From an uncultured Pelagibacteraceae bacterium (GTDB taxonomy: Bacteria; Pseudomonadota; Alphaproteobacteria; Pelagibacterales; Pelagibacteraceae), in contig CACLVA010000003.1 in the NCBI GenBank assembly GCA_902610315.1, positions 1 through 64,000 of the forward strand: a stretch of 64,000 nt of DNA, read 5' to 3'. This document shows positions 17,340 through 55,800 of the stretch, in pieces. How positions within the stretch are numbered: position 1 is the stretch's first letter; each line of letters starts with the position of its first letter. Position numbers and translations under genes: made by a program. The notes under the pieces were generated by a model. It searched no databases, was not told the DNA's origin, and worked only from the letters and a program-made list of their open reading frames with translations.

Positions 17340-17487
17340 TTTTTATATTTATAGCCTAATAATTAAATGTAGTCAAATAGGTTGTATTTTGAGTCTGAAA
17401 TTGAATCAAAAGTGAATCAAAAGGTGAACATTGAAACTACATATTGTTGTGTTGTGGATAACTTTTACAATAGATAGACTAAGCAAA

Positions 17488-25360: not shown

Positions 25361-26644
25361 ATGATTTTTGGAGCTAAAAAAATAGATATAAGTAGGGTTG
25401 AAGATAACTCAAGACAAGATCTTGCTTTAATCACTCAAATGAATCAAGAGTTAGCAGGATCATTAGATCTTAAAGAAACATTACAAAATGCATTAGAAAC
25501 AATAATTAAAAGAATTAATGCACAAGCCGCGAATATATTTTTGATTGAAGAAAAGAAACAAGTGTTTCAATGCATAGCATCTAAGTATCAAGCTTATCTG
25601 GAAGACTATGAGATACCATTAACTCAAGGTGTAATGGGTAGAGCTGCCCTCGGTAAGAAATGTATTAGGGTTGGTGATGTAAGAAAAGATGTTAGAGAAA
25701 TAGCAGAATTTTATTTTGATTTAGATAATAAAACAAATTTTACAACTTATTCAGTATTATGTTCACCTCTTTTAGTATCAGGAGAATGTATTGGCGTAAT
25801 TCATTGTTTAAATAAAAAAACAAATACAAAATTATTTGAAGAGAACGATAGAAAACTATTAGAAACATTATCAGGACCAGCAGCGCTTGCGATTAAAAAT
25901 GCTAAGACTGCAAAAGAATTAATAGATAAAAACAGAATGCAAAAAGAAATAGAAATTGTTGGTGAAATACAAAAAACTTTGTTATCCGAAAATAAAAATG
26001 ATGATTTTCCGATTGCAGGAATAAATATACCTGCAAAAGTTGTCTCAGGTGACTTTTATAATTTTTCTGATCTAGGTAATAATAAATTTGGTTTTGGTGT
26101 TGCAGATGTATCTGGAAAAGGAATCAAATCATCATTGCTAATGTCTAAAGCATCAAGTTTGTATCGTTGTTTAAGTAAAACAATTTTTTCAGCGTCATCA
26201 CTTTTAAAAATATTAAATGATGAAATCTGCGAAACAACAACAAGAGGAATGTTTGTGACTATGATCGTTGGCGTTTATGACAAAAATAAAAACGAATTAC
26301 TTTTATCTAATGCCGGTCATGAACCTCCGTTAATTTTTTCTAGCGACGGAAATTTTAAAACAGTTGACGAAGCTGGTCCACCACTTGGCATTGCGCCAAA
26401 TTTTAAATTTTCAGAACAAATTATTTCTTTTAAGGAAAGCTCGATGTATATATTTACTGACGGTATTACTGAAATGAAAAATACTAATGGAGATATGTTA
26501 GGACAAGAAGGTTTTCAAGATTATATTAAAAAGTATCAGAGTACTCCAAACAATAAAAGATTACAAAAAATAATTGAAGATCTAATTAGTTCTGGCAGAA
26601 TTCAAAAAGATGATTTAACAATTGTAACTGTTGATGGAAAATAA
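25361..26644 (+). CDS. GAF-domain SpoIIE/RsbU-type phosphatase
   Basis: GAF domain (NQELAGSLDLKETLQNALETIIKRINAQAANIFLI); ADVSGKGIKSSLLMSKASSLYR, SNAGHEPPLIF, FTDGITEMKN, KDDLTIVTVDG. Confidence 0.92.
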   Translation: MIFGAKKIDISRVEDNSRQDLALITQMNQELAGSLDLKETLQNALETIIKRINAQAANIFLIEEKKQVFQCIASKYQAYLEDYEIPLTQGVMGRAALGKKCIRVGDVRKDVREIAEFYFDLDNKTNFTTYSVLCSPLLVSGECIGVIHCLNKKTNTKLFEENDRKLLETLSGPAALAIKNAKTAKELIDKNRMQKEIEIVGEIQKTLLSENKNDDFPIAGINIPAKVVSGDFYNFSDLGNNKFGFGVADVSGKGIKSSLLMSKASSLYRCLSKTIFSASSLLKILNDEICETTTRGMFVTMIVGVYDKNKNELLLSNAGHEPPLIFSSDGNFKTVDEAGPPLGIAPNFKFSEQIISFKESSMYIFTDGITEMKNTNGDMLGQEGFQDYIKKYQSTPNNKRLQKIIEDLISSGRIQKDDLTIVTVDGK

Positions 26645-26647
26645 ATA

Positions 26648-26947
26648 ATGTCTATACCAAAGGTAATGATTGCTTTTGGTATTATTCTTTTTACAATATT
26701 ATTTTGGGCAACATCAAATGTTTGTAGATATAATTTTGCAATTGAAAAAAGAACTAACCAATTAAATATAATTGCTCAAGAAATTGATCCGTCAATTCCA
26801 TTAGCTAAAATTTATTATTTTAAAGAATTGAATTGTAATGAAGTTGAACTAACTTGGGATTATGATAGAGTGATATCAAACTTACAGACAATATCAGTTT
26901 TAATATATCAAGAGCTATCAACAGACATTAGGGGAGATCCGAATTAA
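26648..26947 (+). CDS. Small N-terminally membrane-anchored protein, unknown function
   Basis: ORF 99 aa, one hydrophobic segment, 3 bp after the phosphatase gene. Confidence 0.55.
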   Translation: MSIPKVMIAFGIILFTILFWATSNVCRYNFAIEKRTNQLNIIAQEIDPSIPLAKIYYFKELNCNEVELTWDYDRVISNLQTISVLIYQELSTDIRGDPN

Positions 26948-27121: not shown

Positions 27122-27457
27122 CTCTAACACAAAACTACATGACTCTAACACAAAAATACTAAAAATTTGTAAAATTCAAAATATTGTTGATTTTATTGAT
27201 CTTTTTAACTTTTTTATAAATTAGTAAAACTCTAACACAAAATATTTTTTTCTTTTGTGTTAGAGAAAATGTAAATTGTGTTAGAGTTTTTAAAATTTAT
27301 TGTGATAAGAATAAAAAATTTTAAAAAATAAAAATTGCGAAAAAGTGTTGATTTTGCTTGTTTTTTTAAAAATACGCTCAAAATGAACAACTAATAATCG
27401 AATTTGTGTTAGACTTTTTTTTAAATTGTGTTAGAGTTTAAAGAAATTGTGTTAGAG
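27122..27457. repeat. Array of eight 11-bp elements CTCTAACACAA/TTGTGTTAGAG
   Basis: Minus-oriented at 27122-27132, 27143-27153, 27230-27240; plus-oriented at 27255-27265, 27276-27286, 27404-27414 (last base C), 27426-27436, 27447-27457. Confidence 0.95.
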
Positions 27458-27490: not shown

Positions 27491-29902
27491 ATGAGCGAAG
27501 ACAATAAAGACGATTATATTAAAAAGGAAGAAAACAATTCAGAATTGGAAAAACAATCTGAAGTTGATGAAAATAATTCAACTAAAGAGGAAAATCAGCC
27601 GTCTGATGTTCAAAATCAAGAAAATCAACCGAGTGTTGAAAATATTTCAAGCGCAAATGAAAATTCTGATAAAAATTTAACTCCTGAAAACCAAGAAGCG
27701 CCTGATGACAAACAAGATCGCCAAGTAATACATAAAAAAGATGGCAGACTTCACATATATATAAGACAAGATAAGTATAAAGGAGAACTTAAATCAAAAA
27801 ATTGGGTAGGTAGACTATATATCGACGGAAAACAAAAGATTTCTTCATCAGGTACACCAAACCTTGAGGAGGCAATACCAATTTTAGAGAAATGGTTTGA
27901 CGATATTCATGCTGAGAGCGAAAAATTAAAAAAACAAGCTGAAGAAAACCAAACTAGTGTTGTTCAAACTGAACAACAAAATATAGATCAGCAATCTAAA
28001 ACAGAAACTTCTTCACCAGGAGTAACCCAGGAGAGTGAAGTCCAAACAAAAACAGATGTAAATCAAACATCACAACCAATTGTTAATCAGATTGTTGAAA
28101 ATAAAATTGATGAAAAAAATGTTTCAACAAATGAAAGTATCAACAAAGAAGAAACAAATAAAACTTCTACGACGAAAGAAAAATTTTCAAATCTATTTGG
28201 TAAATTAAAAAATATAAAATTAAAAAAACCATCTTTAGATGGTATTAAACTTCCTAAATCTCCTTCAATTAAAAAAAATAATTCACTAGCGAAGATTTTA
28301 GATTTTTTTAAAACTAAAATTGGTAAATCCTCAATGCAAGGTGAAGAGATAGTCGGTGTTGAATTAAATAATAAAAGTATAAGACTGGCTCAAATTAATG
28401 CAGACAAATCAAATCAATGGGTATTAGAAAAATTTTATACTCATAAAGTAGATATACCTGATGAAAGTTCTGTTTTAGAAAATGCAGAAAAAATAACAGC
28501 AGAACTAACTTTAGCAATCCAAAAATCAAAAACTATTACATCTAATGTTGCTATTTCAATACCTGTAACAAGTGCAATCATAAGAGTTGTTACAGCTCCT
28601 TTAATGAAGGATGAGGAATTACAAAAAGCAATAGAAACAAATTCTTTATGGGAAAACTTAGTTCAATTAACAGATAATTTAGATGATTATTCTATTTTTC
28701 ATCAAGTAATAAATAGAAACCAAAAAGATAATACTATGGATATCTTATTTGTTGCATCTAAGTTGGCAGATATTAATAGTTATGTATCGATAGTTAAAGC
28801 AGCAGGGTTAAATCCAGTTATAATTGACGTTAAATGTTTTGCATTAAAATCTGCAGTTGATCAAATAAATCAAATTTCAAATAAATCAGAAGATGCAAAT
28901 CTTACTGCTGTTTTAGAATTTGGCCTAGATGAAAACTATCTAATGATATTGTATGACAATAACCCAATAATCACTGACATTTTTTTAAGAGGTCAAGATA
29001 GAAAAATTCTTCAAGGCTCGCAAGATTCCGAAGAGAAAGCTGGTTTAGTTAGAAGATACGTTACTCAAGTAAAACAAGCAGTTCAAGATTTTGAAACAAA
29101 ATATGAGAAGAGAATTAGAAATTTAAAAGTTGTTTCAGATCTAGAAAATGTAGAGGAATACTTATCATTTTTTAGAAAAAGCCTTTTGAACGTTGGCTTT
29201 AATTTATTTGATCCAGTTGAGGGATTAAAGGTACCTCAACAATTTCAAAAAGATTTAGATTTACCAAACAGATCTTACTTAACAACTTCAATTGGTCTTG
29301 CTTTTAGAAAATTGGATGTATTTGGCTACTATAAATTTGTAACGGCAGCAAAAAATATAAATTTATTACCTAATAGAAAAAGCATGTTCCAACAGAAGAA
29401 GATGAAGGCTATATCAGGTTTTGCTTTTAAAGGACTGGCAGGTGCAATTGCAGGTATTTATTTAATTTTGTTCACATTATCTTTTTGGAATATACATTCT
29501 TATAACAAAAAACTTAAAAATTATCAGAGTGTAAAAGAAACCCATATTCAAAAACAAGCTGAGCTAAAAAAAGTTTCAAAAGAATTAAAACTAATGCAAA
29601 CTACTTTACAACTTAGCAATAGCTTAAAATCAAATAAAGAACTTACTTACAGAGTTTTAGCGCAGGTTGCATCTAGTGTTCCAACAAGAGTTAGATTTGA
29701 CTCAGTAGAATACAACGGCTCTAACTTACTTACTATTCAAGGAATAGCTGCAAGTGACCAAGATATTTTGAAATTTATTGAAAATTTAGGAAGACAAAAA
29801 TTAATTGATCAAGCATCACTATCTTCAATGAGATTGCCTCAAAGAGTTCAAGGTGGTGCAACAATGAAAGGTTTTAGGGTATTTGTAAAAATTAAAACAT
29901 AA
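27491..29902 (+). CDS. PilM-PilN fusion with a long N-terminal extension
   Basis: PilM-like actin fold (GVELNNKSIRLAQINADK...) followed by PilN-like NINLLPNRK...TM...; acidic low-complexity N-terminus. Confidence 0.82.
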   Translation: MSEDNKDDYIKKEENNSELEKQSEVDENNSTKEENQPSDVQNQENQPSVENISSANENSDKNLTPENQEAPDDKQDRQVIHKKDGRLHIYIRQDKYKGELKSKNWVGRLYIDGKQKISSSGTPNLEEAIPILEKWFDDIHAESEKLKKQAEENQTSVVQTEQQNIDQQSKTETSSPGVTQESEVQTKTDVNQTSQPIVNQIVENKIDEKNVSTNESINKEETNKTSTTKEKFSNLFGKLKNIKLKKPSLDGIKLPKSPSIKKNNSLAKILDFFKTKIGKSSMQGEEIVGVELNNKSIRLAQINADKSNQWVLEKFYTHKVDIPDESSVLENAEKITAELTLAIQKSKTITSNVAISIPVTSAIIRVVTAPLMKDEELQKAIETNSLWENLVQLTDNLDDYSIFHQVINRNQKDNTMDILFVASKLADINSYVSIVKAAGLNPVIIDVKCFALKSAVDQINQISNKSEDANLTAVLEFGLDENYLMILYDNNPIITDIFLRGQDRKILQGSQDSEEKAGLVRRYVTQVKQAVQDFETKYEKRIRNLKVVSDLENVEEYLSFFRKSLLNVGFNLFDPVEGLKVPQQFQKDLDLPNRSYLTTSIGLAFRKLDVFGYYKFVTAAKNINLLPNRKSMFQQKKMKAISGFAFKGLAGAIAGIYLILFTLSFWNIHSYNKKLKNYQSVKETHIQKQAELKKVSKELKLMQTTLQLSNSLKSNKELTYRVLAQVASSVPTRVRFDSVEYNGSNLLTIQGIAASDQDILKFIENLGRQKLIDQASLSSMRLPQRVQGGATMKGFRVFVKIKT

Positions 29903-29904
29903 TT

Positions 29905-30597
29905 ATGAATTTTAATATTGATTTAAAAAACATTGACTTAAAAAATATATCGCTTGAGGATATCCAGGCTAAACTTAAAAAAGTTGAGAAAAAAACATGG
30001 ATTAAACTTGGTTCGTCTTTGGGCGCAATAATTGTATTTTTAATAATTTTCTATGGCGTTCTTAATCCAATAGTAAATAAAAAGAAGGCTCAGTTAATGG
30101 ATATGAATACAAAAATAGAGGAGACCGAGCAATTCAATAATAAAATTATAATATCCAAAAAAAAGATAAAAAAAATTAAGCCTAAGTATGAGCAATATTC
30201 TACTCTATTCCATACTAGAGCAGAGGTGGAGGGTTTGTATCAAACTCTTAGTGAATTTGCTGGCAATAATAATTTGATCATTTCTAAAATTGAAAAGAAA
30301 AAAATAAAAGAAGTCACTAAAGCTGAAGCAATTTCAAAAGCAACCGGCAAGAAAGCTAAGGGTGGTGGCAAAGGTAAAAAGAAAAAAGCAAACCTTGCAT
30401 ATTATACTATTCCTGTTGATTTTGAGATTACTGGTAATTTTATTGGTTATATTAAGTTTAAAAGACAGCTATCTCTCTCACAAAAAATGTTAAATTTTGA
30501 CAAAGAGGTTATTAGAGTGGTACAAGGGGATACAACCGGAGCGATAAAAGTAAATGGCACATTAACAATAGTAGGTTTGGTAGATGAATTTTTTTAA
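29905..30597 (+). CDS. pilO: Type IV pilus assembly protein PilO-like
   Basis: Single TM, coiled coil, periplasmic ferredoxin-like C-terminus (YYTIPVDFEITGNFIGYIKFKRQLS); operon position. Confidence 0.8.
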   Translation: MNFNIDLKNIDLKNISLEDIQAKLKKVEKKTWIKLGSSLGAIIVFLIIFYGVLNPIVNKKKAQLMDMNTKIEETEQFNNKIIISKKKIKKIKPKYEQYSTLFHTRAEVEGLYQTLSEFAGNNNLIISKIEKKKIKEVTKAEAISKATGKKAKGGGKGKKKKANLAYYTIPVDFEITGNFIGYIKFKRQLSLSQKMLNFDKEVIRVVQGDTTGAIKVNGTLTIVGLVDEFF

Positions 30598-31090
30598 AAT
30601 TATTATAATCCTATTAAGTTTTATTTTTTACAATAATTTGGCCCTATCAGACAGCCATGACAAAGAACAAAACATTGTCGAAAAAGCAAAAGAAATAAAT
30701 CAAAAAGTTAAAAAAGATCAAGCTATTAAAAACGCCAATATTTCTGATGCAGTTGGAAAAGAGGAGCCACTACCTCTTAATGATCCATTTGTAGGCGATG
30801 GCTCTTTAGGTGGTGGTAATCAAGTTAAATTAATTGCAGCAACAGAAGAGGAAAGAAAAGGGTTAAGTGTATTTAATTACAAGCTTGTTGGAATAATTGA
30901 AAGTGAAGATAATATGTTTGCTTCTTTAATTGATGAAGATGGTGAGGTATTAACTTTAAGTTTATTTGAGGAATTAACCCCAGGTGTCAGACTGATTGCT
31001 CTAGATACTAATGAAATTGTTTTTGAAAGAGAAGAGGATTCTTTAGTAGTTATAAATTTTAAAAATCAAATTATTGAGAGAGACAAATAA
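30584..31090 (+). CDS. pilP: PilP-like pilus assembly protein
   Basis: Signal/TM; PLNDPFVG and LVGIIESEDNMFASLIDEDGEVLTL; operon position. Confidence 0.72.
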   Translation: MNFFKIIIILLSFIFYNNLALSDSHDKEQNIVEKAKEINQKVKKDQAIKNANISDAVGKEEPLPLNDPFVGDGSLGGGNQVKLIAATEEERKGLSVFNYKLVGIIESEDNMFASLIDEDGEVLTLSLFEELTPGVRLIALDTNEIVFEREEDSLVVINFKNQIIERDK

Positions 31091-31092
31091 TT

Positions 31093-32649
31093 ATGAAAAA
31101 AAATTATTATAAAATAATCATAAGTTTTATTTTCATAATCTTCTTTATTACCGGTTGTGCTCAACCAGGTAAAAAAGTTAAAGGATTTAAACATGACACT
31201 CCTTTAATAAAAACAGACGTCAAAGAGCTTGGAAAAGAACAACTAGAAAAAGATGTTAAAATGGGCCCAATCCCTGCAGAAGCTGATGTTGTTAAATTGA
31301 AAAAAAGAAAAAAAATATCTTCAGTTAAGGAAAAAAATTATCTTTTAATCTCAGAAGATTATCCAAAGTTAAAACAAACAGTAACATTCAAGTTTCAAAA
31401 CATGGATTATGCTGAGGCAATGGGATTAATGGCGAAGATAGGTGATATAAATATTTTAGTTGGAGAAGACGTTGCTGGAGCAATAACAGCAGAATTAATT
31501 AATGTTCCTTGGGATAAAGCTTTTAATGCTTTATTAGATATAAAGAATTACGCAGCTGACATCGATGTCAATAGTAATATTATAAGAGTTGCAACACCTG
31601 CTACTTTAACAAGTCAAGAAAGTTACAAATCTGCAAGAGCACAAGCAGTCAAGAAAAAAGTTGAGTTAGAAGACTCAGTTGAACCAATTATTTCTGAAAT
31701 ATTTAGACTTTATTATATTTCTCCAGCAGAAGCTAAAGCAACTATTACAGAATTATTCACGTCTACTGCAACAAGCGGTTCTTTTGTGCCAATACAAATA
31801 ACGGAAGAAAAAACTACAAGGTCCATAATTGTAAGAGGTAAAGAAAAAGATTTAGATGTAGTTGATAAAGTAATAAGAGAAATTGATGTTCGAACTAAAC
31901 AAGTTTTAATGGAAGCATTTATTGTTGAAGCAACTTCAAATTTTGAGAGAGCTTTAGGGACAAAGCTTGGGGCTGCGTACACAAGAAATAGAGTTAGAGC
32001 AGGGGGTACTGCTGGTAACGCTACATCTATAGGTGAAACAGAAGGCGACGGAGGAGCTATCACGTCAGAAACAGCTGCGATAGGTGGAGCAATAGATAAT
32101 ATTTTTCAATCAAATGCTGTTGGAGCGGCTACAAGTGGTATAGGAGTTTTAAGAAGAACAGGTTCTGCAGTTTTAAAATTACAGTTAGATGCTCTAGAGA
32201 CCGAAGGCCTAAGCAAAACAATATCGAACCCAAAACTATTTTCATTAGATAATCAAACAGCTTCAATTACTCAAGGAGTTCAAATCCAGCTTCCTGGAAG
32301 TGGTGATACTGGACCTCAGCTTGTTGATGCTGCACTAAAATTAGTAATTACACCTAGTATAATTGGTGATGGAAATGTCTTAATGGAAATTCAAGTAAAT
32401 AACGATACACCTGATAGAACTAACCCAGGCTCAATTGGTATAAATAAGATGGAAATTACTACAAAATTACTGGTGGCCGATGGAGATATAGTCGTAATTG
32501 GTGGAATTAAAAAGAATGAAGTGGCAAGCTCTAAAGATGCTGTTCCAGGAGTATCAAAAGTTCCATTATTAGGAAAAATGTTTCAAGGTAAGGCAAAATC
32601 GGATAAACTAAATGAGTTGTTAGTGTTTATTGCGCCAAGAATTTTGTAA
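31093..32649 (+). CDS. pilQ: Type IV pilus secretin (PilQ/MshL-like) with lipobox
   Basis: FFITGCAQPG lipobox; secretin C-terminus LVITPSIIGDGNVLMEIQVNNDTPD...VPLLGKMFQGKAKSDKLNELLVFIAPRIL. Confidence 0.92.
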   Translation: MKKNYYKIIISFIFIIFFITGCAQPGKKVKGFKHDTPLIKTDVKELGKEQLEKDVKMGPIPAEADVVKLKKRKKISSVKEKNYLLISEDYPKLKQTVTFKFQNMDYAEAMGLMAKIGDINILVGEDVAGAITAELINVPWDKAFNALLDIKNYAADIDVNSNIIRVATPATLTSQESYKSARAQAVKKKVELEDSVEPIISEIFRLYYISPAEAKATITELFTSTATSGSFVPIQITEEKTTRSIIVRGKEKDLDVVDKVIREIDVRTKQVLMEAFIVEATSNFERALGTKLGAAYTRNRVRAGGTAGNATSIGETEGDGGAITSETAAIGGAIDNIFQSNAVGAATSGIGVLRRTGSAVLKLQLDALETEGLSKTISNPKLFSLDNQTASITQGVQIQLPGSGDTGPQLVDAALKLVITPSIIGDGNVLMEIQVNNDTPDRTNPGSIGINKMEITTKLLVADGDIVVIGGIKKNEVASSKDAVPGVSKVPLLGKMFQGKAKSDKLNELLVFIAPRIL

Positions 32650-32655
32650 AATATT

Positions 32656-34404
32656 ATGCTTAAAATTAGTAGAGAGAGTGAAATTAATCTAATCAATGTA
32701 TTAATTGATAATGACGTCATATCTGGAAAAGATTTAATAAATATAAAGAAGAAAAGTTCAGAAGGAAATAAGTCCCAGATAGAGGCAGTATTTGATCTTA
32801 AACTTACAGATGAAAAAAAGATTTTAGATATTTTAGTTAAAGAACAAAATCTGGAAATTATAGATTTAAAAAAAGTTGAAGTATCTCCAGATATAAAATC
32901 AGTTTTACCTTCAAATTATATAAAAGTTAACTTTGTAGCTCCATTTAAAATGGAAGGTAAGACACTTCATATTGCAATTCCAGATAGTTCTAAACTTGCG
33001 CTTATGAGAAATTTAAAAGCAATTACAAAAAAAAATATTGAATTACATGCTGCTCCTTTAACCCAGATATCAGAATTTATTGAAAAAATTTCAAGTGATG
33101 GTGAAGTTACCACTGCTACCATTAGACAGGAGAATAAAGAAAAACAAAAAACTTTTGACTCTGATTTAGGTGAAGCTGGGGAAGTTTTAGAGAAAGCTCC
33201 AGAGGAAGATATCGAAGCAATTGAAAATGAGTCAGAGGTTATAAAATTTAGTACAGCTGTAGTTGCAGAAGCCATAAAAAAAGGTGTCAGTGATATTCAC
33301 ATCGAGCCTTATAGATTTTCATCTCGTGTTAGATATAGACTTGACGGTATGCTTCAAGAGCAAGAACAGTATAAAAATTTCTTGCATGACAATTATGGTG
33401 CGGTTGTAACTCGTTTTAAAATTATGGGTAAACTTGATATTGCAGAACGTAGATTACCTCAAGATGGTGCAATTAATTTTAAGATAGAAGGCAAAGTGGT
33501 AGATTTACGTCTTTCAATATTGCCTACTGCAAACAATGAAAGAATTGTAATGCGTATTTTAAATAAAGACGCAGGAGATATCACACTTGAACAATTAAAT
33601 TTTGAGGAGCAAGACTTAAAAAGTTTAAGGAAATCAATTCACTCTACCCAAGGTCTTATTCTTGTAACAGGTCCAACAGGTTCAGGTAAATCAACTACTC
33701 TTTACAGTATATTAAAAGAAGTTAGTAAGCCTCATTTAAATATTTTAACAGCTGAGGATCCAGTTGAATACGAATTAGACGGAGTAGGACAAGTACAAAT
33801 TAAAGATGACATTGGCTTAACATTTGCTTCAGCCTTAAGATCTTTTTTAAGACAAGACCCAGAAATAATTTTGGTTGGAGAGATGCGAGATAAAGAAACA
33901 GTAGATATAGGATTAAAAGCAGCTTTAACAGGACACTTAGTATTTAGTACATTGCACACAAATGATGCACCAAGCACAATTACAAGATTACAAAACATGG
34001 GAACACCTGATTATCTGATAAGTGCTGCATGTCAGTTAGTTGTTGCACAAAGACTTGCAAGAAAAAATTGCAAAAAATGCAAAATTCCAGATGACGATGT
34101 TAACCCAAAAGTTTTACAAGATTTAGGATTTAGCGCTGAGCAAGCCTCAAGAGTTAAAGCTATTAAAGGGAAAGGTTGTGAAACATGCAGCAACACAGGT
34201 TACAAAGGTAGACAAGGAATTTATGAAATTTTAGTTGTTTCAAAACCTTTGAAAGAAGCAATTTTAAGAAAAGCTACAACTCCCGAATTAAGACAAATTG
34301 CCGTTAAAGAAGGTTTCCAAACTATGCAAGATATGGGTAAAAGATTAATTGCTAGCGGAGATTTAAATTTTAGGGAATACGAAAGAGTATTATCTAACGA
34401 ATAA
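32656..34404 (+). CDS. pilB: Type IV pilus extension ATPase PilB/GspE/MshE
   Basis: LVTGPTGSGKSTTLYSIL, AEDPVEYELDGVGQVQ, RQDPEIILVGEMRDKET, tetracysteine CKKC...CETC. Confidence 0.95.
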   Translation: MLKISRESEINLINVLIDNDVISGKDLINIKKKSSEGNKSQIEAVFDLKLTDEKKILDILVKEQNLEIIDLKKVEVSPDIKSVLPSNYIKVNFVAPFKMEGKTLHIAIPDSSKLALMRNLKAITKKNIELHAAPLTQISEFIEKISSDGEVTTATIRQENKEKQKTFDSDLGEAGEVLEKAPEEDIEAIENESEVIKFSTAVVAEAIKKGVSDIHIEPYRFSSRVRYRLDGMLQEQEQYKNFLHDNYGAVVTRFKIMGKLDIAERRLPQDGAINFKIEGKVVDLRLSILPTANNERIVMRILNKDAGDITLEQLNFEEQDLKSLRKSIHSTQGLILVTGPTGSGKSTTLYSILKEVSKPHLNILTAEDPVEYELDGVGQVQIKDDIGLTFASALRSFLRQDPEIILVGEMRDKETVDIGLKAALTGHLVFSTLHTNDAPSTITRLQNMGTPDYLISAACQLVVAQRLARKNCKKCKIPDDDVNPKVLQDLGFSAEQASRVKAIKGKGCETCSNTGYKGRQGIYEILVVSKPLKEAILRKATTPELRQIAVKEGFQTMQDMGKRLIASGDLNFREYERVLSNE

Positions 34405-34412
34405 AAATTCAT

Positions 34413-35654
34413 ATGGATACATTTACATACAAAGGAATTTCTGATGGAAAATATGTAGAAGGAAATATTGAAGCTTTAAATTCAGATGAAGCATCGCATA
34501 AATTAAAAGAGCAAAAAATTATAATCACAAATCTAATTAGAGCGGCCAAAGGTAAAAAAAAAGAGGAAAAAGGATCCAAAAAGAAAGCTAGCTTTGCATT
34601 ATTTGGAAAAAAAAAAGCAAAAGTAGAAGATGTTTTAATATTTTCAAAACAATTTGCAACAATGGTAAAAGCTGGACTGCCTATACTGCAAGTTTTAGGA
34701 ATGTTAAGGGATCAGCTTGAAAGCCCAGCTATGAAGGAAGTAGTTGAGGATATCAGAAAAAGCCTAGAGGGAGGTGTTACATTATCCAAATGTTTTGAGA
34801 AACACCCTGAGCTTTTTGACAATATTTATATCAATTTAATTAAAGCTGGAGAGGCAAGCGGAAAGCTTGATGTATTCTTACTTAAGATAGTTGACTCTTT
34901 GGAGAAAAAAGAGGCTATCAAGAAAAAAATTAAAGGTGCTCTTATGTATCCAGGAATTATGTTTACTGTAGCAGTTACTGTCAGTGCTTTCATGTTAATC
35001 AAAGTTGTTCCGGTATTTGCTAAAATGTATGATGGAATGGGAATTGAACTTCCGGCTGCAACAGCAACAATTATGGGTATGAGCGACTTCCTAAGAGGTA
35101 CTGGAGGAACAATTCTTTTATTTTCATTAATCGCTTTCTTTGCGGCTTTTAAATACTTAACTACCAAAAATGAAAAAATTAGATACATGTGGCATAAACA
35201 AGTTTTAAAGTTACCAATTTTTGGTGAAATGATTTTAAAATCTATGCTGGCAAGAATTTCTTTAATTATGGGTAATTTAAGTGCTGCTGGGGTAAACTTA
35301 TTGGAAAGTTTAGAAATTGCAAAATCAGTTAGTAATAATGTTGTGGTATTAGAGTCTTTGGAAAATGTTAAAAAAGGAGTTTTTTCAGGAGACACTTTAA
35401 CTAAATTGTTTTTAAGAGATCCACTTTTTCCACCAACATTTAGTCAATTAATTTCAGTTGGTGAGCAGACAGGTCAACTTGATGAAATGTTTGGATCTGT
35501 TGCAAAATATTATGAGTCTGAGTTTGATACTGTTGTAGAAAATTTATCTTCACTTATTGAACCTATCATGATTGTATTTATGGGATTAATGATCGGCGGA
35601 CTAATGATTGCAATGTATTCACCAATTTTCAACGTTGGTGCTTTAATTGGATAA
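34413..35654 (+). CDS. pilC: Type IV pilus inner membrane platform protein PilC/GspF
   Basis: FSKQFATMVKAGLPILQVLGML, GEASGKLD, VGEQTGQLDEM. Confidence 0.94.
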   Translation: MDTFTYKGISDGKYVEGNIEALNSDEASHKLKEQKIIITNLIRAAKGKKKEEKGSKKKASFALFGKKKAKVEDVLIFSKQFATMVKAGLPILQVLGMLRDQLESPAMKEVVEDIRKSLEGGVTLSKCFEKHPELFDNIYINLIKAGEASGKLDVFLLKIVDSLEKKEAIKKKIKGALMYPGIMFTVAVTVSAFMLIKVVPVFAKMYDGMGIELPAATATIMGMSDFLRGTGGTILLFSLIAFFAAFKYLTTKNEKIRYMWHKQVLKLPIFGEMILKSMLARISLIMGNLSAAGVNLLESLEIAKSVSNNVVVLESLENVKKGVFSGDTLTKLFLRDPLFPPTFSQLISVGEQTGQLDEMFGSVAKYYESEFDTVVENLSSLIEPIMIVFMGLMIGGLMIAMYSPIFNVGALIG

Positions 35655-35657
35655 TAT

Positions 35658-36089
35658 TTATAATTGTTTAGTTAATACTAGATGATTAATCCAAGGTTTT
35701 TTTCCATCTTTAAACTCAACAGCATCCATTATTTCTTGAATAAAAAAAGTACCTAGTCCACCAGGTTTTACATTATCAATTTGTCTATGTTTTACTTTTT
35801 TTGGATCAACTGGAGTTCCTCTATCATAAAATGCAATTTGAAGCTTATCGTTTTCGCAACTAATTTGGACTACCATTAATTCATTAGCATCTGCTGAATT
35901 TTTAAAAGCGTGCTTGACAATATTTTGTGCAGCTTCTGCAATAGCTAATACTAATTCATCTTTGAGATCTTGTTGAATATGAAGTTTTTCAAATACATCT
36001 CTACAAAAAGTTCTTACCTCTTTTAAACTGGATGAATTAACTAAAAATGCTTTTTTTTCGGTATGATCTTGGTGAGCCGTTTCACTCAT
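35658..36089 (-). CDS. RsbW-like HATPase (anti-sigma/serine kinase family)
   Basis: N box ELVLAIAEAAQNIVKHAF, G1 DRGTPVDP, G2 PGGLGTFFIQEIMD. Confidence 0.88.
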   Translation of the reverse strand: MSETAHQDHTEKKAFLVNSSSLKEVRTFCRDVFEKLHIQQDLKDELVLAIAEAAQNIVKHAFKNSADANELMVVQISCENDKLQIAFYDRGTPVDPKKVKHRQIDNVKPGGLGTFFIQEIMDAVEFKDGKKPWINHLVLTKQL

Positions 36090-36094
36090 AAAAA

Positions 36095-36394
36095 TTATTC
36101 TAAATTTAATATTTGTTCAAGCTTAGCCATCATAATCACTTTAAGAACTGATTTACTCACGTCTTTAATAATTACTTTTGTATTTTTTTCTAATGCTTTT
36201 TGATGACTTTCGATTAAAACCGATATTCCGGAAGAGTCCATGTATTGAACATTGCTTAAATTTAAATGAACCTCTTTTCCAGCTTCAATATGCGGGAATA
36301 TTACTTCCTTTGCTTTTTCAGTTACATCCATATCTATTTCACCATCAAGATGAATTGTTGCTATACTACCGTCTTCTGTAACTTTATAACTCAT
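36095..36394 (-). CDS. STAS-domain anti-anti-sigma factor homolog
   Basis: HLNLSNVQYMDSSGISVLIESHQKA with conserved phospho-Ser motif. Confidence 0.9.
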   Translation of the reverse strand: MSYKVTEDGSIATIHLDGEIDMDVTEKAKEVIFPHIEAGKEVHLNLSNVQYMDSSGISVLIESHQKALEKNTKVIIKDVSKSVLKVIMMAKLEQILNLE

Positions 36395-48186: not shown

Positions 48187-49203
48187 ATGTTTGAAAAATT
48201 AGAAGAACTTGCAAAAAATAATAAAAAGATTTCAGATTTTCATATTAGAAGTGGCTGGCCTTTAGCATATAGGCAGACAGGTGAAATTCATAAAGTTCAA
48301 GATGTAATGGTTAAAGCACAAGATCTACAAGATCTTATTTCAACTAATTGTAATGAAGTAGAAATGAAAAAATTTACTGATACTCATGAGTTAGACTCTT
48401 CTGTTACATTAAGCGGATTAAGATTTAGAGCGAACTTTTATAAAACAATTAACGGTCCTGCAGCAGTATTAAGAAGAGTAGAAAGCGTTATACCAGAAAT
48501 GGGCCAATTTGATTTACCGCCAGCTCTTTATGATATTATTGATATGCACAAAGGTTTAGTGTTAGTCACAGGACCAACTGGATCAGGAAAATCTACAACA
48601 CTTGCTGCAATCGTAAATGAAATAAATAAAACTAGAACTGCAAATATTATTACAGTGGAAGATCCTGTTGAATTTATTCATAAAGATATAAAAAGCATTG
48701 TCTCTCATAGAGAGGTTGGCAAACAAACAAAAACTTTTGCAAGTGCATTAAAAGCTGCATTAAGAGAAGATCCAGATGTAATTTTGGTTGGTGAGATGAG
48801 AGATTTAGAAACTGTTGGACTTGCTTTAACAGCTGCAGAAACGGGTCACTTAGTATTTGGAACGTTACACACAAGTGGTGCACCAAATACAATAAATAGA
48901 ATTATTGACGTCTTTCCACCTGAACAACAAGCTCAAATAAGAGCACAGATTTCAACATCATTAAAGATGGTAGTTACACAAAGACTTCTAAAAACTAAAG
49001 ACGGTCAAGGACGTTGTGGTGCTTTTGAGGTGATGAAGTGTACAGCTCCAATTCAAAACTTAATAAGAGAAGCAAAAATTCATCAAATCCCAAGCATCAT
49101 GCAGACTGCAGTAAAAGATGGTATGATTACCATGACTAAGTCTTTAGAAGAATTAGTCAAAGCAGGAAAAATAGATGCAAGTGCTGGAAAAGAACAACAT
49201 TAA
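48187..49203 (+). CDS. pilT: Type IV pilus retraction ATPase PilT
   Basis: LVLVTGPTGSGKSTTLAAIVNEIN, HREVGKQTKTFASALKAALREDPDVILVGEMRDLET, GTLHTSGAPNTINRIIDVFPPEQQ. Confidence 0.95.
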   Translation: MFEKLEELAKNNKKISDFHIRSGWPLAYRQTGEIHKVQDVMVKAQDLQDLISTNCNEVEMKKFTDTHELDSSVTLSGLRFRANFYKTINGPAAVLRRVESVIPEMGQFDLPPALYDIIDMHKGLVLVTGPTGSGKSTTLAAIVNEINKTRTANIITVEDPVEFIHKDIKSIVSHREVGKQTKTFASALKAALREDPDVILVGEMRDLETVGLALTAAETGHLVFGTLHTSGAPNTINRIIDVFPPEQQAQIRAQISTSLKMVVTQRLLKTKDGQGRCGAFEVMKCTAPIQNLIREAKIHQIPSIMQTAVKDGMITMTKSLEELVKAGKIDASAGKEQH

Positions 49204-49942
49204 AGGTTTTAGTCTTTTTGAATTATTGGTTGTGTTATCAATTATAGGAATTATTTCTGGAGTTGCTTACCCAAATTTTTCAAAATGGAACAAAGAAAGA
49301 AAAGTTAGACAAGATATTGAAAAAATAACTTCTTTAATAAAAAATATTCATGTGCAAACAGAAAAAGGAACTTTTGCATATGTTCAAGTAAGATTTACTA
49401 ATTCTAATGATAGTTTGAGAGTTCAAACCAAAGGTATGTCAATGGATACTTTAGCAACTAAGATTAATGATGGAACCAATATTTGGAATACCGATATTAC
49501 AAGTAGATGCGATGTTTTAGATGATACTTACTGGGATACAGATACAGCTGATGAAACCGATGACATCAGAAATGTTGTTTATGATCAAACATTTAATTCA
49601 GTAACATCCAACTTATCAATTGGCGGTGGTGGCGCAGGTGGTGGAACATCTGCAACTGTTGGCTCGGCAACATCTAGTGCTGTCTGTTTTTCAAGAGGTG
49701 GAAAGTTTTATGAAGCTAATGGAGAATTACTTGGACCTGGTAACGCTCCATTTGGATTTATATACCTATGTAGAAGAACTGATTCAGGTCACACATGTCC
49801 TGTAAGTTATGGAGGAGACGTAAGATTAAAGGAAGAACCATCGGGAAGTTTTGAGTTTTTAAGTACTATAGAATGGTCTCGGTATGGTAATTTTTCAAGA
49901 AGCAAATGGGATAACAAAAACGATAGATGGTTTGAAGAATGA
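49175..49942 (+). CDS. Minor pseudopilin (GspH/FimT-like)
   Basis: MQVLEKNNIKG/FSLFELLVVLSIIGIISGVAYPNF prepilin signal. Confidence 0.88.
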   Translation: MQVLEKNNIKGFSLFELLVVLSIIGIISGVAYPNFSKWNKERKVRQDIEKITSLIKNIHVQTEKGTFAYVQVRFTNSNDSLRVQTKGMSMDTLATKINDGTNIWNTDITSRCDVLDDTYWDTDTADETDDIRNVVYDQTFNSVTSNLSIGGGGAGGGTSATVGSATSSAVCFSRGGKFYEANGELLGPGNAPFGFIYLCRRTDSGHTCPVSYGGDVRLKEEPSGSFEFLSTIEWSRYGNFSRSKWDNKNDRWFEE

Positions 49943-50586
49943 TTAATAAAAAAAATAAAAAAGTTTTAGGAGTTTCAATATTAGAGGCATTAGTATCAAC
50001 AGTGATTATAGGAATAGGCTTTGTGGCAATTTTACAGATGACTAATTACTCTGTCCAATCTATGCAAACTTCTGGGGATAGAACTAAAGCAAATTATCTA
50101 ACAAATGTGATCGCAGAGGATGTCATAAGTACTAGAAGAGAGACAACAGGTTCATTTGATAACTTTTCTAATTACTTAATATCAAATCAATTAAATGCAG
50201 ACGTTTGTTCATCAGCTGCTGGGACAGCATCTTCTAATACAGGAAAAATTTATGGAGATGGCTCTGGATCACTTGATGCACCTGTAATGAAATTAAATAA
50301 ATGGAAAGCATTATTAAACAGTAAAGACTATTTGAGTTGCAAAGGACAAATAGCTGCAGATGGAAGTATAAATTTTAATGAAACTAGACAATTCAGAGTA
50401 TTTAAAATTTGCGGCTGGAGTACTGGTGCTGGTTGTTTGTCTAATGACAACGAGCTGTATAATGGGGGCCAAATACAAGATGAAGAAATGTATATTGGCA
50501 GAGTTCAAATCAATTTAAATCAAGGAAAAAAAAGGAAATATCTTTATTTTCAAACTGACTACAAGTTAGTGGGAGTTAATGACTAA
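49939..50586 (+). CDS. pilV: Minor pilin PilV-like
   Basis: KKVLG/VSILEALVSTVIIGIGFVAILQM. Confidence 0.82.
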   Translation: MINKKNKKVLGVSILEALVSTVIIGIGFVAILQMTNYSVQSMQTSGDRTKANYLTNVIAEDVISTRRETTGSFDNFSNYLISNQLNADVCSSAAGTASSNTGKIYGDGSGSLDAPVMKLNKWKALLNSKDYLSCKGQIAADGSINFNETRQFRVFKICGWSTGAGCLSNDNELYNGGQIQDEEMYIGRVQINLNQGKKRKYLYFQTDYKLVGVND

Positions 50587-51598
50587 AAATAAACTTTTAA
50601 AAATAAAAGGGTTCAGCCTTGTCGAATTATTAGTAGGAATTGTTATCACTTCAATAATGATGACCGCAATGTACACTTCCTACACTGTTGTAAATAAAAC
50701 TTATTCCCAAGTAAGTGAAAGGGCTAAAATTAGCAGGTCTAGCAGAGATCTAGTTTCAATGTTGATGAGAGATGTTAGAATGTCTGGATTTAGATATTAT
50801 GCAGGCACTCATACTATTAATAAATTTGCTGAGGATACTGATAGTTGTTTTGAAGGCGCTGGAATAAGACTTCCCAAAACAAGTTATTTAGCTTTTAATA
50901 ATGGTTTTACAAATCAAAGCTTAAGCCATAATCCTGTTGTTATTAGAAAAAATACATTAGGTTACGGAAGCATAAGTGAGACTGATGCCCCTAGCCAAAC
51001 AGAAATAAGAAGTAATATGCCAGACGGTTACGTAGATGACCAGTGTTGTGATCAAATACAAATTGTTTACGAAGATTTTAATCAAAACAATTTAAATCAA
51101 CCGTACCAAAAATTTAGAATAACTTATTTCGCTGAGCCACGTGTTGTTGGTGGAGATGCAAGGTTTGCAGTTTATAAAACAATAGAAAGTTGGCAGCAAC
51201 CAAGATCTGAAGAGCCAGTGTCATGTGAATTTCCTACAACAGGAGAATGGAGTGATAATTGTAGGGATTGTGTAGTTAAAGAGTTAGTAAGAGATTATAT
51301 TACCGATATGGAATTCATTCCTTTCGACTCTAAAGGTAAAATAATAAAAGATTCAAGTGGAAGATATCCTGCTCCTGAAATAACAGGTATTAGAGATAGA
51401 TTATTTGATATTAGAGGGGTAGATATAAGACTGACATTCAGGTCTTCAGATGATTTTTTTAAGTCAAATGCACCAGACTCAAAAAAAAGAATTGTTACAG
51501 GTTTAGATAATAGATCTAAAGAATATACAGATAAATATTTAAGAGACTCAGTAATAGTCACAGTGAATACAAGAAATATTGGCGGGGGACTTTTTTAA
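50579..51598 (+). CDS. pilW: Minor pilin PilW-like
   Basis: LKIKG/FSLVELLVGIVITSIMMTAMY; RDLVSMLMRDVRMSGF. Confidence 0.85.
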   Translation: MTKNKLLKIKGFSLVELLVGIVITSIMMTAMYTSYTVVNKTYSQVSERAKISRSSRDLVSMLMRDVRMSGFRYYAGTHTINKFAEDTDSCFEGAGIRLPKTSYLAFNNGFTNQSLSHNPVVIRKNTLGYGSISETDAPSQTEIRSNMPDGYVDDQCCDQIQIVYEDFNQNNLNQPYQKFRITYFAEPRVVGGDARFAVYKTIESWQQPRSEEPVSCEFPTTGEWSDNCRDCVVKELVRDYITDMEFIPFDSKGKIIKDSSGRYPAPEITGIRDRLFDIRGVDIRLTFRSSDDFFKSNAPDSKKRIVTGLDNRSKEYTDKYLRDSVIVTVNTRNIGGGLF

Positions 51599-51601
51599 AT
51601 A

Positions 51602-52267
51602 ATGAGTAATAAGAAAAACGAAAAAGGATTTACTTTAGTTTTATCACTTGTTTTACTATTAGCCATGTCGTTAATGGGGGGAGGTCTAGTAGTAATAGCC
51701 TCTACAGATCATCAAAGCAATAATAGTAGTGATCAATATCAACAAACATTTTATGTGGCTGAACATGCATTATTAGAGGCTGAAAAAAGATTAGTTGAAA
51801 ATATGATGGGACCAGTAATATCAGCTTCAGCGGGAAGAAATGAAGATATAAGAGGTATTCCGACCAATAGAGAGAATGCTGTGTCAGGTTTAGATCAAAC
51901 TACCCCTTGTTATAGAAGTTTTAGAAACCTAAGCAGGGATGCAGGTTTTAGGGTTTATGAGCATATACAAGATGTAAGTTTTTATGATGTTATTGAACCA
52001 ATATTAACTAATACCACTGGTCTAGGAAGTCCAAATGATATTGCAAACGAAATACAAAATTTAGAAAAATATCATTATGAATTTTTCTCAATAAACGCTG
52101 GTTCTGCAGATTACAAATCTGCTGGGATGAGTCTAAAAAAAGGTTCTGGAACTACACAAAGAACTGGTAGTGCTTATAGAATATATGGTTGTGGAATTAT
52201 GGGCAACAATCCAAGGAGACCTGAAATATTAATACCACTTGAGACAATTGCAATTATTTCTCACTAA
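51602..52267 (+). CDS. pilX: Minor pilin PilX-like
   Basis: NEKG/FTLVLSLVLLLAMSLMGGGLVVIAS; YVAEHALLEAEKRL. Confidence 0.82.
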   Translation: MSNKKNEKGFTLVLSLVLLLAMSLMGGGLVVIASTDHQSNNSSDQYQQTFYVAEHALLEAEKRLVENMMGPVISASAGRNEDIRGIPTNRENAVSGLDQTTPCYRSFRNLSRDAGFRVYEHIQDVSFYDVIEPILTNTTGLGSPNDIANEIQNLEKYHYEFFSINAGSADYKSAGMSLKKGSGTTQRTGSAYRIYGCGIMGNNPRRPEILIPLETIAIISH

Positions 52268-52339
52268 ATTCATTAATTATCAACCTCAATTTAAACATTA
52301 TTGCATGTTGAAAATTTTTTCTAATAATTTAAATTTAAG

Positions 52340-52861
52340 ATGGTGAGAAAATTTTATTTATATACTATTTTTTTGTTATTCCTTTTTAACAAGTCTTTTG
52401 CTTGTCAATTATTAAGTGTACCTATTGGATCTAATATTAATACAACCGCTCAAACATTTGAATTTGTTGACACTTATGAGGAGGGAGCTTATGAGGAGGA
52501 AGCATCTGTAGTATTTTTTGATTATGCTGAAGATTTTTGTCAAGGGTCAAACTTAAAAGATACTGAATTAGAAGTCATAATTTATAAATCAAAGCTTGCT
52601 GGCATTAACTTAGTTAATTTAGATCAAAATAACAAAAATTTAGTTTATCAATTTACAAAAGATTTTATCTCTGATCCAGGTGCCGATGCTAAAAGTGAGA
52701 AATGGATTGGTCATAGAAATTTAAGTGTTGGAAACTTATTAATATTTTACGGCAAAGTAAAACACGGAAAAGAAATACATGAGTTTTTGGAGATAAGTAA
52801 CCCAGAAATGATTGATTTTACGATGGGTGAAAATTTAGTAGGGTCTGAAGGACAAATATGA
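52340..52861 (+). CDS. Exported protein of unknown function between pilX and pilY1
   Basis: Signal peptide FNKSFACQ; ATGA overlap with pilY1. Confidence 0.6.
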   Translation: MVRKFYLYTIFLLFLFNKSFACQLLSVPIGSNINTTAQTFEFVDTYEEGAYEEEASVVFFDYAEDFCQGSNLKDTELEVIIYKSKLAGINLVNLDQNNKNLVYQFTKDFISDPGADAKSEKWIGHRNLSVGNLLIFYGKVKHGKEIHEFLEISNPEMIDFTMGENLVGSEGQI

Positions 52862-55800
52862 AATATTTAAAAATTATATCAATCTTTTTCATATTTATAT
52901 TTTTAAATAATAATTCATATTCAAAACCAGTGCCACCTGGAGCTGGAGACGGAGAAGTTGCAGCTAATATTTTGTTTTTAGTTGATAGTTCAGCAAGTAT
53001 GCAAACATGGATTGGCGATCAAGGTTTAGGAGCCACACCTAAAGCAGTATACGACTCTCAAGGAAGAATATTGATTAACCAAAATGGAAGAAATGCAGTT
53101 GGTTTGTTAAGATATACAGCAGCAGGTGAAAGAGATGAGACTTTTATGCCTATGAGACTTACTCCATCAGAATCGTGTGATGAAACGAATGATACTTTTA
53201 CAACAAGTAGAAGGAGCATGAGAAGAAATGCTGGATTGAATTTTGTTAGAGATTTTAGAGGAAATGCAGGTGATCATTTATTTTTCACTATAAATAGAGA
53301 AAGAAGAGACCGAAATGTAGTTTATGGTTTTACTGAAGATGGCACAGACTGTAGAATAGGAATACGTATTAATCTTGCTCGTGCCAGCATTTCAGATATT
53401 GATTTTAAAGTAATCAACGATACTCCTTATTTGTTTATTGCTGGTCCATGGCGTAGAGGTGGTCATTTTAGTACTTGTAATCTTAGTGCTACACCGACTT
53501 GTATTACTCAGGAATTTAGGGGTAATGTTACTCTTAGAAGAATGGGAAGGCTCTCTGTTAACAATGAGGGTACAATGGTTTATGTTACCAACCAAGCTGA
53601 TGGAGATCTTTACGGATACAATTTAGATGTAACATCAGGAACTCCTCTTACATCATTAACAGCAGCTAGAAGATGTTCGAACACAGATAGCCCTGATTTA
53701 AGTCCTGGAGAAAATGATATCTTACATGCTACAACAGTTGCTGTATCACCTGACAATAGCAATATTGTTTATATTGGCTCAAAAATCAATCATGCTATAC
53801 AAAAGCTAGAATTAACTGACACAACTTGTACCGTTTTAGCTAGTATTGGTACAGGCTTTAATACAGTTTTGACGAACTCAGCAAGCGCTGGAGAATTAGC
53901 AGCAGACGATGTTCGTTTCTCAAGAGTATGGGGACTACACGTAGATCAATATAATAACAGAATACTGACTGCTACTTCTAGAGGTTACGTTGATGAGTTT
54001 AATGAAAATAATTTTACTGTTGCATCAAGAGATACAGCTTGGTTACAACAAATGGGAGGCCCGAGAATAAGAAGGTGGGACGGTGTTAAACAAGCTATTA
54101 ATGCAATTGTCAACGATACTACTTTAACGACAGGGGCTCATTTTGGTTTTGGTCATTGGAATGCTGGTGAAAGTGGTAAACATAAAAAATCTACAATGGG
54201 TGGATTACATTGCCATACAAAAACTAACTGTACTTATTATGATGGATGGAAAGGAGCGACCATTACTGAAGGAGGACAAACTAAAACATTAAACCATCCA
54301 AATGGAACATCCGATCTTTGTAATTCAGACTCATGTATAAATGTGGGAATTAGCTCAAGAGGTGCTAGCCAAATTATGGGTGTTTTAGAGCCACTAGGTC
54401 TTGCTTGGGGTACAGATTCTAATGCTTTTGCACAACTTGCATCAAAATATTTTAATGATCCGAATGCAGGAGGACAGGTTTTTGATCCGAACTCTAAATG
54501 TCAACTTAACTATGTAATTGTAATTGGTGACGGAGCTATGATGAATAGTGGTTTTACACATAGACATTTTAGAAAACCAAATACGCTAGTTACCCAGAAA
54601 GGTAATGCTGGACAAGTTATTTCTGCTTTAAGAGCTCAAGGTGTTAAAACATTAATGGTGGCTTATGGTGGAGGTATTCGTCCTGGAGCCATGGATTTAT
54701 TTGATGCGTTTGCTGAAGCAGGATCTTGTGCTACAGCAGGATCCGACGAATGTGAACCAACAATTGTTGCAGATACTCCAGAAGAATTAAAATCTGAATT
54801 GACTAGCAAGATTAGACAAATTATTGCAGACAAACTTGCTTTTACTGCTCCATCAATCACCGCTACCATCCAAGAAGGTGGTGCATTATATCAAGCACAA
54901 TTTGCTTATGAACAATTTGGTGAATGGAAAGGTACTTTACTTAGAAAAAAAATTGATGGTGAAGGAAATGTAGAGCACAAAACTTCAAAACCAAATCCTT
55001 ATAATAATTGGAGTGCTGCTGTTGAAATTAAAGGTCAATCAAAACCAACCGGTGTTGAAGATAATAGAAAGATATGGACTGCAATGCCAGGTGCAACCTA
55101 TTATAATAATTGGGACAATTTTAATGTCTCTAACACGAGCGCTATAACAAATTTATTTGATATTCTCGGATATACTGTCCAAGACTATCATCATTCAAAT
55201 TCTACGTGCACAAATGTGGGTGTGGACGGAAACAAGGATGACATTACAGGGTTAATTAATTACATGAAGGGAGTTGATTATTTCGATTATGATGGTGATT
55301 GTAAGGTTGATGAAGTAAGAGATCACGTTATGGGAGATATATACCATTCTCAATTAATAGAAGTAGGAGCACCAGATGCGAACTTAGATTTCTCAAATTC
55401 TAATGAAGAGGCATACCATAGAAGTATAAATAACTATGCAGGCTTTATGACTAAACACGCTAATAGGAAGAATATAATCTATGCAGGATCTAATAGTGGT
55501 TGTTTGCACGCCATTAATGCAGAAACAGGTCAAGAAGAGTGGTGTTTTATCCCACCATTTGTTGGTGCGTTAATACCTCAAATAGTCAATAGATCATACG
55601 ATGGAAATGTAAACAGTATTACAATTGTTATGGAGGAAGATAGTGATGGAACAAAAACAGAAAAAGAAGTTAAGGTTGCTGTAGGTGGCACAAATCCTAT
55701 TTTTGGTGTTGATGGATCGCCAGTTGTGCATGATATGTATATAGAAGGTTATTCATCATCAGGAGTTGAAGAAGGAAAAAAATGGCGAACTATATTATTT

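Follow-up and report, generated by a model that had tools for sequence, protein, structure and literature searches.

A conserved array of short sites upstream of the pilMN operon of Pelagibacterales and a candidate DNA-binding domain in the PilMN protein

Our results describe a close association between an array of short DNA sites, located upstream of a type IV pilus operon, and a small domain in the N-terminal extension of the first protein of that operon, PilMN. From comparison of sequences, we propose that the sites are probably operators for this domain, by which the pil operon would be kept under feedback control and its locus held at the membrane.

The array and its conservation

The window (the whole stretch of DNA analysed, 64,000 nucleotides) contains seven exact copies of TTGTGTTAGAG and one variant ending in GAC, all within 336 bp (27122-27457). 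It belongs to a genome of SAR11 type (Pelagibacterales), as indicated by an Rfam match to the SAR11_0636 sRNA and by relatives that bear the name Pelagibacteraceae. An earlier note on this DNA had counted eight copies of the motif. Eight sites are indeed present at the positions and in the orientations it gave; seven of them are exact, while the one at 27404-27414 reads TTGTGTTAGAC, with one mismatch. The sites, together with a conserved element from one of the spacers, are:

27122..27132, minus strand: site 1, exact, CTCTAACACAA on the plus strand; kept in relatives
27143..27153, minus strand: site 2, exact; spacing to site 1, 21 bp; kept in relatives
27184..27200, no strand assigned: TGTTGATTTTATTGA element, conserved, within the 76 bp separating sites 2 and 3
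27230..27240, minus strand: site 3, exact; divergent turn (25 bp), left half
27255..27265, plus strand: site 4, exact; divergent turn, right half
27276..27286, plus strand: site 5, exact; spacing to site 4, 21 bp
27404..27414, plus strand: site 6, single mismatch; its C is the relatives' consensus here
27426..27436, plus strand: site 7, exact
27447..27457, plus strand: site 8, exact; 44 bp from its start to the pilMN ATG

Start-to-start spacings within the clusters are 21, 21, 22 and 21 bp, as the earlier note had measured them, and the turn from minus to plus orientation takes 25 bp. A last-base C, as in site 6, is the commonest site variant in relatives; in the first of the three proximal sites it is the consensus. 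The seven exact copies of TTGTGTTAGAG are all that exist in the 1,063,557-bp, 26-contig assembly, for which base composition predicts ~0.7. The motif is therefore confined to the array, and the scatter over the genome by which the earlier note would have been refuted was not seen. A DNA uptake sequence was rejected on the same count, all seven exact copies lying in one 336-bp region. Isolated copies of TTGTGTTAGAG in other genomes are nearly all inside open reading frames and are ascribed to chance or protein conservation.

Arrays with the same orientation and near-constant spacing are present in dozens of related species of Pelagibacterales (in 12 of the 81 genomes of the first search). Eighty named loci encode the PilM domain, 74 of them with a usable ATG-starting frame; sites lie upstream in all 74 but L154, whose start is perhaps misassigned or truncated. 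In these 74 upstream regions, exact sites number 402 of 501, and at ten of the eleven site positions invariance is at least 97%, whereas most spacer positions in the aligned relatives are unconserved. Seven or eight sites are found in 52 of the 61 loci with full upstream sequence (the window counted).

The general layout begins distally with a reverse pair ~21 bp apart, followed by an 85-87 bp gap (56 of 59), one or two further reverse sites and the divergent turn of 25-26 bp (53 of 60). Proximally, one or two forward sites are separated from another two or three by 115-161 bp, a gap that falls into several length classes, and between the start of the last forward site and the ATG are 27-51 bp. 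The commonest distances between neighbours of the same orientation are 21 bp (118 cases) and 22 bp (44). Both array spacers of the window also hold conserved TGTTGATTTT-type elements (27184-27200 and about 27346-27360), which the IHF consensus does not explain; IHF-like sites in the spacers are no more frequent than in shuffles, and sigma-70-like promoter matches in the array region are at chance level only.

Conserved sites amid poorly conserved spacers, spacing near two helical turns, a unique position and the tracking of a coding feature (see below) together give good support to a multi-copy protein-binding array, the interpretation the earlier note had offered. Its further suggestion of iterons or a partition-like locus found no positive support; no Rep-like gene that would serve an iteron origin is present among the Pfam-searched genes around the array. 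Control of pil operon transcription by the array is plausible.

The PilMN extension and its co-occurrence with the array

The likely binder, overlooked by the earlier note, is the N-terminal domain of the operon's first protein, so that the array adjoins the gene of its own proposed ligand. The coding features concerned are:

27491..29902, plus strand: pilMN fusion gene, 803 aa
27719..27925, plus strand: ~65-aa domain of the PilM extension, near-invariant; proposed to bind the array
29905..35654, plus strand: rest of the operon, pilO, pilP, pilQ, pilB and pilC

PilMN consists of an N-terminal extension, PilM_2 (Pfam; aa 289-493), a predicted membrane helix (~aa 648-666) and PilN (aa 721-789); no recombinase domain was found in it with Pfam. 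The ~65-aa domain is ~90% identical among species and is flanked by hypervariable low-complexity linkers. The open frame of PilMN measures 755-840 aa in genomes with the array, compared with 572-596 aa in array-less genomes of the same genus. The names pilO and pilP rest on gene order and size, the two genes having no Pfam match.

Several other genes of the region deserve mention. A GAF-SpoIIE phosphatase (25361-26644, plus strand) lies upstream of the operon, and a small conserved membrane-protein-like ORF (26648-26947, plus strand) stands between it and the array. An RsbW-like kinase and a STAS protein (35658-36089 and 36095-36394, both minus strand) are located downstream; this partner-switching set flanking the pil operon may add another level at which the pilus or a sigma factor is controlled. 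Further on, at 48187-57720 (plus strand), pilT is followed by several small ORFs and an ORF of 1620 aa, the latter in a PilY1-like position and without a Pfam match. A supposed loss of pilT in array genomes was wrong, as the gene is merely elsewhere (window 48187); in the array-less clade it adjoins pilM.

Array and domain occur together. Searching 81 genomes with the domain gave strong matches in exactly the 12 with an array before pilM. The earlier note's other ground for refutation, an array absent or unconserved in relatives, did not refute it either: the array is kept in those relatives that retain the PilM domain. Nine genomes of the same genus with an ordinary short PilM have no such site in ~1.3 kb upstream, and a related clade with ordinary PilM has neither domain nor array. 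Among 398 Pelagibacterales genomes, 55 contain an exact tandem site pair and all 55 encode the domain (Fisher 5e-54, kinship ignored). Genomes with the domain and no exact pair include cut contigs and a divergent PilM clade; in the latter the domain is ~60% identical and placed at the very N-terminus, and inspection finds TTGTGTTAGA[A/G] arrays kept in a different layout. On a tree of the PilM core, the domain label requires two changes: either two gains, or one gain together with a loss in the clade where pilT adjoins pilM. At each of these changes the array goes with the domain. All these counts come from related genomes and neighbouring features. Because domain and array are neighbours, their co-occurrence alone is no proof of contact: a single rearrangement could gain or lose both without the one ever touching the other.

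Integrase and phage relatives of the domain

Besides PilMN, the only cellular proteins with the domain in a profile search of 398 Pelagibacterales genomes are two tyrosine recombinases, L197 (G119:C3) and L198 (G252:C1), of 418 and 423 aa. Both match PF00589 above cut-off (1.3e-7 and 9.7e-8) and a PHROG integrase, and both carry the domain at the N-terminus in a version ~50-60% identical to that of PilM. They are encoded by elements of 5,057 and 5,080 bp inserted in tRNA-Leu(CAA) and bounded by a common TTTTGAGT in the anticodon loop. The joined flanks give an intact tRNA-Leu gene (ARAGORN), and each element holds its own tRNA-Leu as well. The two SAR11 integrative elements also encode a serine resolvase.

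Sites of TTGTGTAAGAG type are located ~60-95 bp inside both ends of either element, as adjacent pairs, and two more occur in the interior; their positions correspond between the two elements. Repeated short sites near attachment cores, combined with a small N-terminal domain, are likewise what defines arm-type binding in lambda Int, whose N-terminal domain binds arm-type sites (PMC4880445). All four exact TTGTGTAAGAG copies of the G119 genome are inside its element, as are four of the seven TTGTGTAAGAG/C copies of G252. This motif and that of the pil array are one base apart, with A7 in the former and T7 in the latter (the comparison covers two related elements), and G119 carries both a pil array and an integrase element. 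Near-identical sites in the integrase elements, with both systems present in G119, are the strongest evidence that the domain recognises TTGTGTNAGA. We regard binding of the array by the PilM domain as very probable.

Two AlphaFold2 models (pLDDT 84 and 87) predict a beta-beta-beta-beta-alpha topology for the domain. Foldseek searches of the PDB with both models gave no significant match; the arm domain of HPI integrase (3jtz) appeared with the first model only, at E 0.24. No Pfam family matches the domain, arm-binding families included, and PF13356 (Arm-DNA-bind_3) has no match anywhere in the domain's own genome. Alignment of the domain with the Arm-DNA-bind_3 profile by hhalign gave P 0.008, with 2 of 150 shuffles equally good, a weak but suggestive result, and the alignment matches the expected features (W..R...GK....G....L.eA). 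PF14657 (Arm-DNA-bind_4) could not be used for comparison, since it is present in none of 58 alphaproteobacterial genomes. We infer that the domain works like an arm-binding or AP2 domain and leave it without either family name, because the profile match is weak and the fold matches are insignificant. A sequence search of the PDB returned a chance match only. Weak matches at E ~1e-3 (L208-L210) are histidine kinases and another (L075) is a leucyl-tRNA synthetase, as judged by reading of the sequences; all were set aside as chance.

A phage form of the domain exists as well. Four viral contigs, which we read from neighbouring sequences as T4-like in gene content, encode a protein of ~115 aa composed of the domain and a subsequent membrane helix. 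Three of these proteins are placed as follows:

L279:5992-6339: phage domain protein, ~115 aa
L281:1828-2178: phage domain protein, ~115 aa
L282:5983-6333: phage domain protein, ~115 aa

No clusters of sites were seen in the viral contigs encoding the phage protein, and an annotated phage collection searched with the integrase N-terminus yielded nothing. A tandem site pair in one viral contig (L038) codes for a Thr/Pro-rich repeat and is unrelated to the array. PilMN and the phage protein, themselves unrelated, thus both combine the domain with a membrane anchor. Pilus, integrase and phage membrane protein are three contexts in which this small domain family occurs; Pfam does not list it.

Possible functions of the array and comparison with known systems

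In the proposed mechanism, the array would act as a set of arm-type-like sites for the PilMN domain, whose homologues occupy the arm-type-binding position in SAR11 integrases. With PilM fused to PilN and a single membrane helix predicted, the domain should reside in the cytoplasm on a long tether; in known systems PilM is cytoplasmic (PMC5285504). Several PilMN molecules, clustered at the inner-membrane pilus base, would occupy, on both sides of the divergent turn, neighbouring sites that lie about two turns from one another on the same face of the DNA. PilMN being a membrane protein whose domain lies on the cytoplasmic side, that of PilM, any array it binds would likewise be held at the membrane. 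The output would be feedback, probably repression, of the pilMN-O-P-Q-B-C operon, in the manner of integrases acting via arm-type sites: in KplE1, arm-type sites overlap the promoter of the IntS gene, which IntS itself represses (PMC2951348). Provided that the domain binds, negative feedback is somewhat more likely than not.

The same binding might instead serve mainly for positioning, with the pilus base holding the pil locus, and with it the chromosome, at the envelope, to the benefit of assembly on the spot or of placing the chromosome, and with little effect on transcription. The predicted membrane anchor of PilMN would suit this purpose, given a PilM that is cytoplasmic elsewhere (PMC5285504). 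So would the unusually large array, the sole one in the assembly, and the recurrence of domain plus membrane helix in an unrelated phage protein. However, the array stands directly upstream of its own operon, its last site within the 27-51 bp already given for relatives, and a site close upstream of its own gene is the classic place for autoregulation. Moreover, Pseudomonas aeruginosa recruits the complex without PilM (PMC5285504). We therefore consider positioning as the main purpose rather unlikely.

Less probable still is an unlinked transcription factor as the array's ligand, the PilM domain doing something else and travelling along as a neighbour. Adjacency would let domain and array be gained or lost in one event, and the array-less clade differs in its upstream neighbour, pilT, too. 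Against this, integrases with a homologous domain have near-identical 11-bp sites at element ends elsewhere in the genome, and no further gene whose presence follows the array has come to notice, short of a systematic survey.

Motif and domain both match an integrase system, so the region could be a relic attachment region, where a mobile element left functionless arm sites and an integrase N-terminus behind. Decay of that kind is very improbable: ten site positions are at least 97% invariant in the midst of variable spacers, and in many species the domain stays near-invariant although its linkers are hypervariable, which argues for active selection. An RNA-level element in place of protein-binding DNA is equally improbable; the turn CTCTAACACAA-N14-TTGTGTTAGAG could form a stem in a transcribed 5' leader, yet the sites are mostly direct repeats, invariant rather than covarying, nearly the same motif flanks integrase elements, and Rfam has no match in the region (in the whole window only the SAR11_0636 sRNA, 17380-17469). 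A replication origin or terminus was rejected, as GC skew has no switch at the array, and so was a ParB/parS centromere, as the sites are asymmetric 11-mers, mostly direct repeats and not palindromes.

If the sites are operators for PilMN, a structural pilus protein would bind DNA sequence-specifically and would, unusually, control its machine with no dedicated transcription factor. The case would also be a clear one of a mobile element's DNA-binding domain domesticated along with its sites. SAR11 bacteria are among the most abundant bacterial groups of the ocean, with streamlined genomes and few regulators. More speculatively, and with a modest chance of being right, the DNA-targeting domain of an integrase may have become a physical link from pilus bases to the pil locus, coupling assembly, expression and chromosome position; the membrane-anchored relative in marine phages might exploit such a link or disturb it. 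G119 offers a directly testable protein-DNA pair, since its genome contains two paralogous domains whose sites are one base apart (T7 and A7). We found no earlier report of such a pilus-protein and array system in the open-access papers searched.

Among known repeat arrays, plasmid iterons and parS arrays have repeats near a two-turn period, a trait shared by the pil array; here, unlike there, no Rep or ParB is seen beside the array and PilM is the apparent binder. Membrane-bound one-component regulators of the ToxR/CadC type are dedicated proteins with a winged helix-turn-helix. PilMN resembles them in joining a DNA-binding domain (here putative), cytoplasmic in its predicted location, to a membrane and periplasmic part, but it is a core pilus component and its predicted beta-beta-beta-beta-alpha domain sits on long low-complexity linkers.

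Integrases of the lambda family likewise combine a small N-terminal domain with several short asymmetric sites, and a homologue of the PilMN domain holds that position in SAR11 integrases. The pilus protein, in contrast, has no recombinase and a fixed chromosomal place, and only repeated sites, with no att core or mobile element, were identified at the pil array. In intS of Escherichia coli KplE1, the sites of the binder overlap or adjoin its own promoter region, much as the pil array is upstream of the gene of its putative binder (PMC2951348); autorepression is known there and proposed here, for a product belonging to the structural pilus machinery. Finally, the PilM_2 and PilN Pfam domains and the standard pilMNOPQ order are those of type IVa pili, from which the present system departs by fusion of PilM with PilN and by an N-terminal extension of ~280 aa that is absent from the related clade and contains the putative DNA-binding domain.
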